From Bacteriovorax sp. Seq25_V (lineage in GTDB: Bacteria; Bdellovibrionota; Bacteriovoracia; Bacteriovoracales; Bacteriovoracaceae), in assembly GCF_000447795.1 (NCBI RefSeq), contig NZ_AUNI01000019.1, positions 1 through 64,000 of the forward strand: a DNA stretch of 64,000 nucleotides, written 5' to 3'. How positions within the stretch are numbered: position 1 is the stretch's first letter; every line of letters starts with the position of its first letter. Position numbers and translations under genes: made by a program. This document shows, piece after piece, positions 41,528 to 47,069 of the stretch. The notes below the pieces were generated by a model. It worked only from the letters and a program-made list of their open reading frames with translations. It searched no databases and had not been told where the DNA came from.

Positions 41528-42373
41528 GTGAATACAACGCTATTAGCAATGGGGATTGCGTTCTTAGTAGTATTAGGATTAGTTGTTAATTTAGGAGTAT
41601 TAAGTTTACTTTCGGGTGCTTTACACTTCTTATTTGCAAGACCTTCATTAGAAATTTTGAAGTCTGAAAATGGTGAGAGTGGTTTTGCATTTGGTTTCCG
41701 TTGGAATAATGCAAGAGAGCCAGCTTCTTTTGACCAAGTAAAACTAAGACTTTTTAATCCATTCGCAAAACCAACTCAAGTTGATGTATCTGCAGACTTT
41801 GCAGGTCAGACATCTGATTTTGGTGTTGATGTTAATTTAGGGCCAGCATTTACTGAGATTCTAAATTCTACGGGATTAGATAATTCAACTCTTCAAATTG
41901 AAGTTGTTTCTAAGAAAGATGGAATCACTCACTACTTTAATTATAAGACAAGAAAGTTCCTAGAGAACTTTAGAGCGGCTAATAAGTCTGTTGCTTCTTT
42001 TAATGAGAAATATGGTTATGTAAAAACTAAGCCAGTTTATCATCAAACAACAAGAAGCTTTATTGCAGATCCACTTCCACAAACGGCTGAGAAGATCTTA
42101 AAGATTCAATCTAACCCAGCTTTCGCAGGTGCTTTTACAGCTGCTGCTGATTCAGCGGCTCCGGCACAAGAGAATTTTACTGTTGCTAAGGTTTGGATTG
42201 AAGATGGATGTATCGTTTGTAATGCTTGTGAAGGTATTTACCCAGAGGTATTTGAAGTTACTGATACGACTTGTTTAATTCGTCCAGATGCACCACTTAA
42301 CGATGGTCTTAAAATTCTTGAATCTGCGGAAGCTTGTCCAGTTGAAGTTATCAAGTTTACAAAAGCTTCATAA
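41528..42373 (+). CDS. Membrane-anchored 4Fe-4S ferredoxin-like protein
   Basis: A 281-aa protein starting with GTG (AAGGAGTTAGG upstream). Residues about 8-38 are a membrane helix (LLAMGIAFLVVLGLVVNLGVLSLL), then about 45-215 a domain of unknown family (strand-rich, FGFRWNNAREPASFDQVKLRLFNP), a linker rich in Ala and Ser, and at about 220-281 a single-cluster ferredoxin with CIVCNACEGIYPEVFEV and EACPVEVIKF (C-x2-C-x2-C ... CP). It probably docks electron transfer to the inner membrane. Partner unknown. Confidence 0.75.
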   Translation: MNTTLLAMGIAFLVVLGLVVNLGVLSLLSGALHFLFARPSLEILKSENGESGFAFGFRWNNAREPASFDQVKLRLFNPFAKPTQVDVSADFAGQTSDFGVDVNLGPAFTEILNSTGLDNSTLQIEVVSKKDGITHYFNYKTRKFLENFRAANKSVASFNEKYGYVKTKPVYHQTTRSFIADPLPQTAEKILKIQSNPAFAGAFTAAADSAAPAQENFTVAKVWIEDGCIVCNACEGIYPEVFEVTDTTCLIRPDAPLNDGLKILESAEACPVEVIKFTKAS

Positions 42374-42403: not shown

Positions 42404-42427
42404 GGGAGACTTGAGTCTCCCTTTTTT
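42404..42427 (+). terminator. Intrinsic terminator after the membrane ferredoxin gene
   Basis: GGGAGAC (42404-42410), loop TTGA, GTCTCCC (42415-42421), then TTTTTT. A GC-rich repeat starts at the next base. Confidence 0.88.
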
Positions 42428-42516
42428 ATGTCCAGGATGGACGGTATGTCGACGGGAGGCAGGAGCCGGAGTCGACGATGTCAGGATGGACGGTATGTCG
42501 ACGATGTCCAGTGGAC
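42428..42516 (+). repeat. Left GC-rich repeat array, 50-bp unit (one and a half copies)
   Basis: A unit starting ATGTCCAGGATGGACGG (42428) is repeated from 42478 (period 50 bp, 64% GC in the first unit against about 37% around) and once more partially from 42504. Each unit has hairpins GTCC-AGGAT-GGAC and GGC-AGGA-GCC and GTCGAC palindromes. Its left edge is the base after the T-tract of the terminator at 42404. The same unit occurs inverted at 42944-43042. Not CRISPR-like (no spacers, palindromic modules). Confidence 0.9.
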
Positions 42517-42522
42517 TGTTAT

Positions 42523-42548
42523 CTGCAGCAAAATGCGTGAGTATTTTG
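42523..42548 (+). repeat. Second repeat module, CTGCAG plus CAAAATGC hairpin (left)
   Basis: CTGCAG then CAAAATGC-GTGA-GTATTTTG forms an 8-bp stem with one G-U pair and a GTGA loop. The related copy at 42869-42894 has a perfect 8-bp stem on the opposite strand, so the pair differs by a change that keeps the pairing. Confidence 0.75.
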
Positions 42549-42868
42549 CCATTGAGCATGTGCGGATTGTCCTTGTTTGACGTCGACATTGAGTGGGTGA
42601 GGGTTTTCTTTAAGCACTTAAGGTAGCAACAATAATTGATACCTTATCGAGTCTAAAAAGTTTCCATTCGTACGATTCTGGATGAAAGCAGTGCTTATAC
42701 TCAATACCTAACTCATCCCAATGATCCATGAACCCCTTCCATTTTTTTACACCATTATCAGCGTAGCCTATCATATATTTTACGCTTGTGTGGTTAAGTG
42801 TGCAGAAGGAGTGAGCCGCTCATTCTTCGCGTTTTTTTGACATTGGCACAACGGTAAAGCTCTGACAT
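42549..42868. other. Interior of the inverted-repeat element
   Basis: About 320 bp between the inner hairpins, with only one short open frame (42610-42774, minus). No transposase, no recombinase and no obvious attachment site. AT-rich, close to the chromosomal composition in the middle, unlike the GC-rich ends. Confidence 0.5.
42610..42774 (-). CDS. Small open frame inside the element, unknown
   Basis: A 54-aa frame starting ATG 42774 (preceded by AAAATAT and no ribosome site) and ending TAA 42610. The protein has MIGYADNGVKKWKGFMDHW, EYKHCFHPESYEWKLF and a hydrophobic end VSIIVATLSA, a composition that looks like real protein sequence. It may be a remnant of a longer gene (the frame continues open upstream for about 9 codons) or a small cargo. 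Low confidence as a working gene. Confidence 0.35.
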   Translation of the reverse strand: MIGYADNGVKKWKGFMDHWDELGIEYKHCFHPESYEWKLFRLDKVSIIVATLSA

Positions 42869-42894
42869 CAAAATGCTCCCGCATTTTGCTGCAG
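42869..42894 (-). repeat. Second repeat module, CAAAATGC hairpin plus CTGCAG (right)
   Basis: CAAAATGC-TCCC-GCATTTTG is a perfect 8-bp stem followed by CTGCAG in the inverted orientation to the left copy at 42523. Together with the 50-bp units this shows that each arm of the element has the same two modules in the same order. Confidence 0.75.
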
Positions 42895-42943
42895 GCAAGA
42901 GGTTGGACGTCATCAATTATCATTCTGATAATTGCTTTCTACA

Positions 42944-43042
42944 GTCGACTCCGGCTCCTACCTCTCGTCGACATACCGTCCATCCTGGACATCGTCGACT
43001 TCGGCTCCTGCCTCTCGTCGACATACCGTCCATCCTGGACAT
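42944..43042 (-). repeat. Right GC-rich repeat array, two 50-bp units, inverted
   Basis: Two tandem 50-bp units on the minus strand (outer ends at 43042 and 42992). They match the left array with few changes (GAGG for GGAGG, AAGTCGAC for GAGTCGAC, one TAGGAGC for CAGGAGC). They contain hairpins GTCC-AGGAT-GGAC twice and GGC-AGGA-GCC. The outer end is the base after the T-tract of the terminator at 43043, as in the left arm. Confidence 0.9.
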
Positions 43043-43069
43043 AAAAAAGGCCCTGCGTTTAGCAGGGCC
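43043..43069 (-). terminator. Terminator of the metalloprotease gene
   Basis: On the minus strand GGCCCTGC-TAAAC-GCAGGGCC (8-bp perfect stem) is followed by TTTTTT and then the right repeat array. Confidence 0.88.
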
Positions 43070-43096: not shown

Positions 43097-46000
43097 TTAT
43101 AGTCCGAATAATCCAGCTTTAAGCTTTTTCTTCGCTTCTACTTTATCTTCTGTCGACATAAGAGCATACTTAAGGTCATTCATTGAGAAATTCTCAAATA
43201 GCTCACTTTCTTCCTTAGACATCTCTCCATACACTCTAGAAAATACATCGTATGCATACTGGAATCTTACGAGACCCACTTTGTCGATATATTTGCCTAC
43301 TGCTTCGTTGATATCTTGACCACTCATCTGCGCCTCAAGAAATACATTGAATAGTGTATCAACGTCAGTCTTAGCTGTTGCATATACTGTTTTAAGGTCG
43401 ATAACTTTTTCAATCAATTCTTTTCCAGCAGTTGGTTCTGCTTGTGGCCCAGTTTGAGTTGGTTCTTCTGAAGCAACATCAGTTGAGTCATCAGCTGAAG
43501 CTGCGTCGTCAGTTGCTACATCATCTTCAGATGGAGCTGGAACTGGAGCTGGTTGAACTGAAGCATCATCAACAGTTTTCTTAATCGCTGAAATCTGAGT
43601 AGCGATTTCATCTTGTAGACCGTTAAGTCTATCAATTAGTTCTTTCGCAATTGTATTTCTCTTCGCTGCTCCGTACTCGAAAGTAGAGTCTTTAGTCTTA
43701 GATACAATTACATCTCCAAACTCATCACTGTCTTGGTTAAGAGCATTCTTGTAAACAGTTAAACTATCTGCGAATGCATTTCTTGCTCTGTACTCTTCTT
43801 CAGTTTCCGCATCTGATATACTTGAACGAGCATTCGTTCTTGCAACTTGCGCTAGAACTGGTCCAAACTTAAAGTTTTCTTTGTCTAAGATTGGAATAAA
43901 GTTCTTAATCGTCCATTTTAAAGATGGTACTTTTGTTTTGATACTTAGGTCTAGTTCAAATGGTGCAGGGTACTTCATACCGTTTGCAGCTGTAAATCTC
44001 ATTGGATCATGTAGTTCTTCACCATAAACTAAGTGTCTAACTAAGTTATCAATTTCTGCATCGTATCCTGGTACATCAACAAATGAGATGTGGTTACTTG
44101 CACCAGCAGTCGTTAGAAGTTCTTTATTTGTTAAGAATTCCATTGCGAATGCTTTATCAATCCAGTTACCTCTAATTTCGATATCAGAAGAGTCATGGTC
44201 TTCGTTTGTTCTGTCAGCAGCGTCTACGTCATTGTGCAACTTACCAACTTCACCTTCAACTTTAGCAGAGATCTGTAGTTGACTCTGGCATACAGCTACG
44301 TTGTTACCAGTTGCTTGAAGACACATATTCATAAGAGTTTGTGAGTATGCTTCTACGACTGCTCCTGGGATATTCTTGTCAAAACATGTCCATGGCTTGT
44401 AAGAACCTTTGTCATTTGGAAGATCAAATGTAAGTTCAGACATAGACTCACTCATTACAAATGGTACTCTTGCATCAGTAATCCATTCTTGGCCACCGAT
44501 TGTTGCAGTTAAACTTGCATCACAAGTTAGATCAGGCGTCTTGATAATATCAAGAAAGAATCTTCCTGCTGCATCGTTTGCATCCTTTGTTTCTTGTACG
44601 TAATCACAGAAGTCACCAATTGAAGCTCTTTGCTCAGCTGAACATCCAGTCACTGCTAGTTGCTCAAACCCTTGGAATTGTCCTAGGTAAGTGTGTAGTG
44701 ATTGCCACTGCTCGTGAATTTGTCTAACGTCAAGCATTGTATAGTAAGTCGATACAATATAGTTCCACGCACCACTTCTGTCGTTGAAGTTCTTTCTACG
44801 ATTCTTTAAGTTTCTCCAGTAGTAGTTTTCCTGGTACTTATCAGCTAAGTGGTTCATAATTTCTTTAACGTTTGAACCTTCGTCAAATCTGTTACAAGTA
44901 AGCATTGAACCAGCATCTTCATCAGTACAGAAACCATATTTTTTAAGGTTAGGTACTTTGTTTAGAAGAGTAGATTTTCCAAGCTTAACAAAGCTTCCAT
45001 TAGTTAATTGTACTTCTCTGTTATAAGCAAATTTTAATGCTGCAGTATCATACTTACCGAATGTTGATAATTCGTTAAGTGACGAGTAAGCATAATCCAT
45101 AATCGATGAGTATACTGATCCGCCATCAATACCTAGCTCTTTTCTCTCTTTTTCAGAGTAGAAGTTATCCTTGTCAACACTTCCGTAGAAGTTGTGTCTA
45201 AGACCTAGATTATGTCCAATTTCGTGAACAAGAGTTGGAACATATGCATGTTTCGCTAGGATTTTAGTTAACTGAAATTTTTGATCAGAAGTTAATTCAA
45301 TCCAATCTTTTAGTGCACCTTTTTCATCTCTAATACCTTTAACAGTATTGATTTCTTTTACAGATACTTTTCCAAGAGATTGAAAGTTTAACATGTCAGA
45401 TGTAAAACCTGAGTTTCTGTTAAGAATTTCTTTTGCTTTCGCTTGTTTTGCATAACGACTTGTAAATTCAGGGTTCGCTTTTTCAAATCTCTTAATAAGC
45501 GCATCTTCATTTCTGAATTCAACTTTTCTATTAAGGAATTCTTTAATTGCACCCTTAGTAAGTCTCTTACCAAGCTGAACCTTACCTAGAGATTTATTTA
45601 CTTTTTCATGCTTGTGGTTATGGCCATGAGCATCTTTTTCTCCAAGGTCAAGTTTTGCAATTAGGTTAAGTGCATTTTGAACAGCATTTGTTCTCTCTGC
45701 AGCTGTTGACTTCTTAAGAAGTGGTCCGGCCATTCCTAGAGCTTTTTCTGCATCTGCTGGAGGAAGTGGTCTTTCATTCTTTTCTCTTTCAAGTTCTCTT
45801 TCTAACCATACGATTGAATCATAAGTATATGGTGCAAATGACTCTAGTGAACCTTTGTACATATTAGTGTGACCTTTAACGATCTCACCTGTTCTTGGAT
45901 TTGCTACTGTTGGTCCGTATCCTAATAGTCCAGAAGCGATATCTTCAATAAGAACAATCATCGTGTTTCTTAAGCTTCCTGGTGATTTTCCTGATGGCTC

Positions 46001-47047
46001 ATGAAGTTTTAAGAAAAGGTTAACACCGTCTCTTGCCATCGCTTTATTCATTCTATCAAAAGCATAGTAAGTTGCTTCTTTTAAGTACTCATTTCCAAGA
46101 GTAACAATTTTACCATTTTCATCGTAAGTTGTTTTCTTGTTAAACTCATCACTTAGGTGATAATCGATAACTTTACGTTCTGGATTCCATCTGTTCATTA
46201 CAAATGTATAATCTGTTCTCATGTCATCGTTTTTAATTTTTTCTTCAGTTGTAAAAAATCCAAATAGTTTATGATCATCAACAGGGTAGTTAACTTTCTC
46301 ATAGTTTGGTGATGCAATAGAGTCTAGTTTTGCAAAAGAGTAGTGAACACGAACATTAATCGCACCAGCATTATCTTCTAGCTGTTGCTTATATTGTTGC
46401 CATGTCTCGACATTGTACATTAGGTTTTCGTAACATGAAGGTGTGTCGATAAATTTATAAGTCTTTTCAATTGTAAAGTTTAAGTCTGTCTTTGTAATTT
46501 CAAGAGTGTCTTTAAGTAGTCTGTCTCCAATTGGCATGAAACATGAGTCTCCAGAGCTTGGAAGCTCTAGACTATCAGCTTCAAGAAGTTGAGTTCCTGC
46601 AAAGTTTGCAACAAACTTATCTTTTTGGAACCACTCAAGTTCTGAGTTTTCTTCTTCCTCATTTGTACACTCGTCATTTGAGTTAAGTCTACAACGGTAA
46701 GCGTGATACGATACAGGAATCTTCAAGATTGGCTTATTGTTAAGCGTATTATCTGTAAACGAAGGATCCTTTTCCATTTGGTAAGCAACAATTGCATCCT
46801 CTTCAAACTTAAATTTGATGATTCGCTCTTTACCTTGAACAAATGGCGCCATCGCAGTTGTATATCTTGGTACACCTTGCGACGTTGGTACGTATAAGAA
46901 TTCTGCTTCAGTGTCGATACTTGCTTTTGCTTGTAGACCACCGTTCTCAGAAGACTTAAATACTTCTTCAAACTCACGCTCTTTAGCACATCCTGTAATT
47001 AGACCTGCAAGAACAAGAGTACTTAATAGATAATTCTTTTTAGACAT
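43097..47047 (-). CDS. Large lipoprotein zinc metalloprotease (HExxHxxGxxH)
   Basis: A 1316-aa lipoprotein (lipobox LITGC near residue 20). Near residues 600-640 the zinc site HEIGHNLGLRHNFYGS is followed about 40 residues later by SIMDYAYSS, the met-turn of metzincins, the form seen in DUF5117/DUF4953-type bacterial proteases. Before it is a large N-terminal region (about 40-590), after it a helical region with several cysteines and a Pro/Ala-rich linker near 1190. ATG 47047 is preferred, with CAGGAG 5 nt upstream. It follows the barrel gene by 22 bp. Likely attacks peptide or protein at the surface or in prey. Confidence 0.82.
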   Translation of the reverse strand: MSKKNYLLSTLVLAGLITGCAKEREFEEVFKSSENGGLQAKASIDTEAEFLYVPTSQGVPRYTTAMAPFVQGKERIIKFKFEEDAIVAYQMEKDPSFTDNTLNNKPILKIPVSYHAYRCRLNSNDECTNEEEENSELEWFQKDKFVANFAGTQLLEADSLELPSSGDSCFMPIGDRLLKDTLEITKTDLNFTIEKTYKFIDTPSCYENLMYNVETWQQYKQQLEDNAGAINVRVHYSFAKLDSIASPNYEKVNYPVDDHKLFGFFTTEEKIKNDDMRTDYTFVMNRWNPERKVIDYHLSDEFNKKTTYDENGKIVTLGNEYLKEATYYAFDRMNKAMARDGVNLFLKLHEPSGKSPGSLRNTMIVLIEDIASGLLGYGPTVANPRTGEIVKGHTNMYKGSLESFAPYTYDSIVWLERELEREKNERPLPPADAEKALGMAGPLLKKSTAAERTNAVQNALNLIAKLDLGEKDAHGHNHKHEKVNKSLGKVQLGKRLTKGAIKEFLNRKVEFRNEDALIKRFEKANPEFTSRYAKQAKAKEILNRNSGFTSDMLNFQSLGKVSVKEINTVKGIRDEKGALKDWIELTSDQKFQLTKILAKHAYVPTLVHEIGHNLGLRHNFYGSVDKDNFYSEKERKELGIDGGSVYSSIMDYAYSSLNELSTFGKYDTAALKFAYNREVQLTNGSFVKLGKSTLLNKVPNLKKYGFCTDEDAGSMLTCNRFDEGSNVKEIMNHLADKYQENYYWRNLKNRRKNFNDRSGAWNYIVSTYYTMLDVRQIHEQWQSLHTYLGQFQGFEQLAVTGCSAEQRASIGDFCDYVQETKDANDAAGRFFLDIIKTPDLTCDASLTATIGGQEWITDARVPFVMSESMSELTFDLPNDKGSYKPWTCFDKNIPGAVVEAYSQTLMNMCLQATGNNVAVCQSQLQISAKVEGEVGKLHNDVDAADRTNEDHDSSDIEIRGNWIDKAFAMEFLTNKELLTTAGASNHISFVDVPGYDAEIDNLVRHLVYGEELHDPMRFTAANGMKYPAPFELDLSIKTKVPSLKWTIKNFIPILDKENFKFGPVLAQVARTNARSSISDAETEEEYRARNAFADSLTVYKNALNQDSDEFGDVIVSKTKDSTFEYGAAKRNTIAKELIDRLNGLQDEIATQISAIKKTVDDASVQPAPVPAPSEDDVATDDAASADDSTDVASEEPTQTGPQAEPTAGKELIEKVIDLKTVYATAKTDVDTLFNVFLEAQMSGQDINEAVGKYIDKVGLVRFQYAYDVFSRVYGEMSKEESELFENFSMNDLKYALMSTEDKVEAKKKLKAGLFGL

Positions 47048-47069
47048 GTTCACTCCTGTAGCTTTAGAC

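Follow-up and report, generated by a model that had tools for sequence, protein, structure and literature searches.

Inverted arrays behind two convergent terminators

The window analyzed here is a stretch of 64,000 nucleotides (positions 1–64,000 of contig NZ_AUNI01000019.1) from Bacteriovorax sp. Seq25_V, a member of the Bacteriovoracaceae. Its segment 42428–43042 contains, as described in the initial annotation, two arrays of a 50-nt unit inverted around a central stretch; there are two units per arm. A 21-nt core occurs four times in the window, compared with 0.00 occurrences expected from shuffled windows.

The left array (42428–42517, plus strand) lies downstream of a gene for a ferredoxin-domain protein (41528–42373; Fer4_13 domain), whose intrinsic terminator (GGGAGACTTGAGTCTCCC followed by T6; 42404–42427, plus strand) is the putative insertion target. 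The full first unit (42428–42477, plus strand) has a GC content of 64% and scores 79 bits against a covariance model built from 12 copies. Its first hairpin, GTCC-AGGAT-GGAC, is followed by the linker GGTAT and by the second hairpin, GTCGAC-GGGA-GGC-AGGA-GCC-GGA-GTCGAC; these hairpins fold as originally proposed (z = −3.6 for the unit as RNA). The second unit (42478–42517, plus strand; 25.9 bits) is degenerate, with hairpin 1 and half of stem 2 retained and the inner hairpin deleted.

The right array (42943–43042, minus strand) consists of two full units, 96% identical and spaced by 50 nt, the first of which (42993–43042, minus strand; 81.3 bits) abuts the T-tract, while the second (42943–42992, minus strand; 75.7 bits) follows it. 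The respective terminator (43043–43069, minus strand; hairpin at 43049–43069, T6 tract at 43043–43048), again the putative insertion target, belongs to the convergent gene 43097–47053. The previously described arrays are real; their boundaries needed correction, as the right array starts at 42943 and the second unit of the left array is truncated. At both arms the array begins, precisely as had been noted, at the base right after the T6 tract of the convergent gene's terminator. The gene at 43097–47053 (minus strand) encodes a protein of 1318 aa that starts like a lipoprotein, contains a metalloprotease motif (HEIGHNLGLRHNF), and has no NCBIfam match at E 0.001.

Both arms also carry the further hairpin module noticed earlier, CAAAATGC-GTGA-GTATTTTG on the left (42529–42548, plus strand) and CAAAATGC-GGGA-GCATTTTG on the right (42869–42888, minus strand), with a G-U pair in the left copy versus a G-C pair in the right one. 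A search beyond the locus found this module nowhere else; its two copies hence demonstrate only an inverted duplication within the locus, and the G-U/G-C difference carries no weight across loci. Since the module is shared by both arms, one arm was probably copied across the locus by inverted duplication or conversion. The single 54-aa open frame reported between the arrays is located at 42610–42774 (minus strand); a search for its relatives found none, and it is doubtful that this frame is a gene.

In 5 of 5 congeners, the terminator of the ferredoxin gene is present and the unit is absent. As judged by this comparison, the two arrays behind the two convergent terminators appear to be a lineage-specific gain.

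Structure and conservation of the unit

The unit, ATGTCCAGGATGGACGGTATGTCGACGRGAGGCAGGAGCCGRAGTCGACG, is about 49–50 nt long and forms two hairpins in the layout AT-stem-AGGAT-stem-GTAT-stem-[AGGA]-stem. In an alignment of 99 copies, fitted to the structure, standard pairs constitute 97.5% of the paired positions, 268 cells are changed on both sides, and paired stem substitutions far exceed those in shuffled and slid controls; an independent alignment of 12 copies agrees on the paired changes.

The loops stay AGGAT and AGGA while the stems covary. Loop 1 reads CAGGATG in most copies, and of the 99 copies 85 keep GGA in loop 1, 91 in loop 2, 79 in both loops, and 97 in at least one. The loop-1 variants ACGA (several copies), ATGA, and AGTA preserve the structure and lose GGA. 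Hairpin 2 is mostly preceded by the linker GTAT, with GAAT, GTAC, and ATAT as variants. The constraint lies on the loops and on the existence of stems, whereas the sequence of the stems is free. Such a combination of fixed loops with free, yet paired, stems is expected if a protein reads the folded unit, either as RNA or as single-stranded DNA, and provides a handle for finding this protein.

The suggestion of selection on RNA structure stands only in part. The paired substitutions are overwhelming, but G-U mismatches in stems (11) are about as rare as A-C mismatches (8). As selection on one RNA strand should favor G-U, the lack of an excess over A-C may indicate that the constraint acts on folded DNA; the numbers are small, and this is weak evidence. 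G-U depletion as such was discarded as a proof of DNA-level constraint, since with matched scoring terminators are equally G-U-poor.

Distribution among genomes

A search of the genome and its relatives with the unit, as had been proposed, identified a dispersed repeat that is not confined to this locus. The genome of Bacteriovorax sp. Seq25_V contains nine matches, those beyond the window being located on contigs C20 (two in tandem), C11, and C17, with a weak one on C9. At E <= 0.1, by the rough E-values of the covariance model, matches were observed in 48 of 129 Bacteriovoracaceae genomes, many of which are draft metagenome assemblies. The copy number ranges from 0 to 26 (1 to 26 in positive genomes), and the copies sampled for further analysis favor high scores. 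The distribution is patchy within genera, and the unit is often absent from sister species.

In a sample of 291 genomes from the phylum, searched at E <= 1e-4, every positive belonged to the same family, and the unit was not found in sampled members outside Bacteriovoracaceae. A pattern scan of 84,980 species genomes yielded 22 stretches, most of them named Bacteriovoracaceae, Bacteriovorax, or Halobacteriovorax; four stretches labelled only 'Proteobacteria' match contigs of a family member (G135). Phages, plasmids, and viral contigs contained nothing convincing, two plasmid rows being judged chance. No Rfam family except unrelated RNAs matched the window or the surroundings of the copies at the gathering score, and sub-threshold matches were dismissed as chance. 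No description of such a repeat in Bacteriovoracaceae was found in the part of the literature covered, and the family is apparently unreported so far.

The nearest relative of a copy comes from the same genus in 67 of 93 cases (16% with permuted labels), as expected from repeated local amplification. At four loci of G135 (L071, L072, L090, and L093) an imperfect inverted repeat of greater length surrounds the unit (AAATGCCATCTGCTTCGTT [unit] GCATCTG..TATTTAT); the unit may be nested there in a second small element, or the whole may be a bigger version of the unit.

An extended terminator, a chance match, or an assembly artefact is a very improbable explanation of these observations. While some copies do lie near contig ends, as repeats do, the number expected by chance is 0.00, the copies come from independent assemblies of many species and have single-copy flanks, and this explanation is refuted by the orthologous filled and empty sites described below.

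Terminators and genes upstream of the unit

Flanking regions were taken from about 85 loci, mostly higher-scoring ones. A strict intrinsic terminator directly precedes 57 of 86 array-first copies, compared with 1% of random positions in the same loci, and on the other side none of the 86 copies has an opposite-strand terminator pointing at its far end. A few more copies follow longer-loop terminators that were missed by the strict rule. The distance between the G-C stem of the terminator and the unit peaks at 6–7 nt, and 78 of 98 copies are preceded by TT, most of the remaining ones being tandem joints. Hence the earlier expectation that copies are preceded by T-tracts holds for most of them. 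About a quarter to a third of copies lack a clear terminator; these mostly still follow TT, and some lie right behind a stop codon.

The upstream genes are biased toward typical high-output genes, the output level being judged from gene identity. These include genes for flagellin (seven loci in six genomes), RpoD (four loci in three genera), MetK, ribosomal proteins L31 and L19, an S4-domain protein, CspA, ATP synthase subunit c, HPF, H+-pyrophosphatase (H+-PPase), and others. The RNase P RNA ends 4 nt before one unit, and 5S rRNA is about 40 nt before one unit. The same genes are hit in different genera (rpoD in three, flagellin in four, as well as rpmE, porin, and metK genes), reflecting either repeated targeting or long retention.

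Several other repeats were seen in this context. On contig C20 (L016), the 25-nt tail of the ndk gene (GAAGTTCTTCCAAGATACTAATTTT, 1787–1811) is repeated at 1979–2003, ~190 nt downstream of the original and directly before a unit, as if the transcript end had been copied along with it. On contig C9 (L019, 1980–2130), three copies of a 21-bp repeat, TGGTGGGTCATGCAAGACTTG, lie next to a weak copy of the unit and a tRNA, one of them immediately following the T-tract of a terminator; considered as a second post-terminator repeat family, it proved local to this one place. Two further sequences, noticed at L199 (downstream of the ferredoxin gene in G001) and L017 (1990–2030), may represent related post-terminator families: a long hairpin behind another terminator, GCGTCAAATACC-ACGAT-GGTATTTGACGC, with the loop CACGATG, and a second repeat-like stretch, AACCCTGAC..GATGCGA..GAGAGGGTT, that is common to the C11 locus.

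CsrA sponges of the CsrB/RsmZ type carry repeated hairpins with CAGGATG or AGGA in the loops. The initial annotation had offered a readthrough sponge as an alternative. In a fuller form of this idea, abundant transcripts that run past their terminators would acquire 3' tails, and the paired GGA hairpins of these tails would titrate CsrA and so couple its activity to growth and to the synthesis of flagellin. The loops are of the right kind (CAGGATG in loop 1 of most copies, GGA in both loops of 79/99), and the 27-nt spacing of the two GGA hairpins would be suitable for a CsrA dimer. Flagellin genes precede the unit at seven of the sampled loci, and there is a precedent in Campylobacter, where CsrA activity is controlled not by antagonizing sRNAs but by a dual-function flagellin mRNA (PMC4894983). 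The presence of CsrA in 117 of 129 family genomes agrees with a sponge but is uninformative as a test, as CsrA is near-universal regardless of the unit and equally occurs in element-free genomes. Against this reading, the ACGA, ATGA, and AGTA variants of loop 1 keep the structure and lose GGA, neither the zero spacing from the T-tract nor its splitting is needed for a sponge, G-U has no excess over A-C, and the unit at the window locus was gained recently. We consider it unlikely that the unit is primarily a CsrA sponge; it is possible as a secondary use, and nothing found requires it. In both genomes of genus g17 (G021 and G141), the CsrA match is limited to 17 residues at the C-terminus, which may reflect gene loss or a contig absent from the assembly.

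Filled and empty orthologous sites

The rpoD site in genus g56 is filled in G105, which has CCCTTTTTT[unit]TTTATCTGC, and empty in G110, G119, and G120, which have CCCTTTTTTTTATCTGC without the unit. Here the unit splits the T-tract, T8 at the empty site corresponding to T6 and T2–3 at the filled one, any duplication comprising at most one T. In the flagellin spacer of genus g14, intact units with different but internally paired stems are present in G049 and G050 behind a nearly identical terminator, decayed units were found in G044 and G048, and there is none in G051, G018, G046, and G042. No target-site duplication was seen at the filled and empty sites (window locus, flagellin, rpoD). These comparisons point to clean insertion inside the T-tract, about 6–7 nt past the hairpin. 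A MITE does not fit the data, given that solo units have no terminal inverted repeats and the rpoD site has no target-site duplication longer than a single T. What looks like a conserved sRNA is also present in the g14 flagellin spacers (L170–L188) of the species examined: a short conserved sequence ending in a terminator, CTTAARCCCAA..CCCTTCCGCTTCCCCGCAAT..GG..GGGTTTTTT, whose C-rich loop reads CTTCCCC.

The same sites bear on whether the unit could be a host-selected element at transcript ends, for example one that blocks readthrough or stabilizes 3' ends, acquired at terminators in need of it and kept by selection. Its recurrence behind rpoD, flagellin, rpmE, porin, and metK genes across genera and the paired stem differences that separate G049 from G050 at one flagellin site are consistent with such a role. 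The patchiness within genera, the precise empty sites, the genus-specific subfamilies, and the decay of the copies that G044 and G048 carry at that flagellin site speak against it, and host selection is an unlikely explanation.

Possible mode of spread

The exact junction, fixed orientation, absence of duplication, empty sites, and lineage-specific subfamilies make terminator-targeted non-autonomous insertion the best reading. The unit is probably a ~49–50-nt mobile, or formerly mobile, non-autonomous repeat, and the earlier proposal of a repeat targeting terminator ends is strongly supported by the genome-wide T-tract adjacency and the filled and empty sites. As the comparisons show, it inserts into the terminator T-tract in one fixed orientation without visible target duplication, preferentially behind typically strongly transcribed genes, and individual lineages have amplified it independently, in some cases into head-to-tail arrays. 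A trans-acting enzyme would recognize the two conserved loops and the folded stems, and would pick its target as a terminator hairpin with a T-run, in the fashion of group IIC introns. Landing just past a terminator would keep the unit out of genes and mostly untranscribed.

Several observations weigh against a mobile repeat. Some copies, roughly a quarter to a third, have no clear terminator in front of them; the presence of copies at orthologous positions across genera (rpmE, rpoD, flagellin), with paired stem changes, may reflect a retained function instead of repeated insertion; and movement is inferred from comparison, never having been observed. Furthermore, no mobilizer was found, and the distributions of Y1 transposases and reverse transcriptases misfit. 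A resident reverse transcriptase (PF00078) was rejected as the mobilizer, given its absence from the element-rich genomes G048, G044, and G016.

A REP-type palindrome moved by a RAYT transposase of the IS200/IS605 family would account for the short hairpins, an unpaired GTAT tag beside hairpin 2, and the head-to-tail and inverted arrays, and the lack of target duplication and an orientation fixed relative to a short 5' target motif are REP-like (PMC3733652). However, no unpaired GTAG or CGTC was found, the linker being mostly GTAT with variants GAAT, GTAC, and ATAT. No Y1_Tnp match was obtained in G135 (18 copies) or G016 (12 copies), although this absence must be read with caution, their assemblies being 91% and 87% complete, respectively; Y1 genes are present in genomes without copies. 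By coordinates no Y1 gene is close to a unit, the nearest one seen being about 12 kb away (G069). With RAYT (Y1, PF01797) rejected as the mobilizer by its distribution, a REP-type origin seems quite improbable.

A rather speculative reading is that the unit spreads via an RNA step: its copy would become attached to transcripts at their terminated 3' ends, and recombination would then return the product to the genome. Such a route would account at once for a junction lying where transcription ends, for the sense orientation, for the preference for strongly transcribed genes (rRNA, RNase P, flagellin, rpoD), and for the second ndk 3' tail before the C20 copy, though the ndk tail is one case and several element-rich genomes have no reverse transcriptase match. 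If true, it would be a mode of movement using transcription termination itself.

In this repeat family, intrinsic terminators define the insertion site with nearly single-base precision, and the predatory clade that carries it has received little study with regard to mobile DNA. If the unit moves, its sites constitute a natural record of the terminators available to it.

Comparison with known systems

Like the CsrB and RsmZ RNAs, the unit presents several GGA hairpin loops (both loops in 79/99 copies, at least one in 97/99). Unlike them, it is not a dedicated sRNA gene but is dispersed behind terminators, and GGA is not kept in all copies; no Rfam Csr/Rsm family matched at the gathering score in the window or around the copies.

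The BOX, RUP, and SPRITE repeats of pneumococcus are strongly folded intergenic repeats that were probably once mobile, SPRITE being enriched at gene 3' ends (PMC3049150). The unit resembles them in these respects, but BOX and RUP have terminal inverted repeats, which the unit lacks, and SPRITE is itself terminator-like, whereas the unit adjoins, at an exact junction, a terminator that was already there.

With REPs and REPINs the unit shares the character of short dispersed intergenic palindromes, the arrays, and the lineage-specific subfamilies (PMC3733652), and CGTC REPs likewise are without a known transposase (PMC3733652). It differs in having two hairpins per unit, AGGA loops, the GTAT linker, insertion into T-tracts, and no RAYT beside any copy.

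The target choice is similar to that of group IIC introns, which, as summarized in PMC3240598 citing Robart et al. (2007, PNAS 104:6620), recognize the stem-loop of intrinsic terminators and integrate shortly downstream of it in a fixed orientation. These introns are ribozymes with a reverse transcriptase, whereas the unit, with its ~50 nt, has no ribozyme and no open reading frame; there is no Rfam group II match and no reverse transcriptase in the element-rich G048, G044, and G016. The unit nevertheless also lies behind intrinsic terminators in a fixed orientation (57/86 by the strict rule, 1% in the control, 0/86 in the opposite direction), and, if it moves, it would be a second class of elements, besides group IIC introns, using terminators as a safe harbour.
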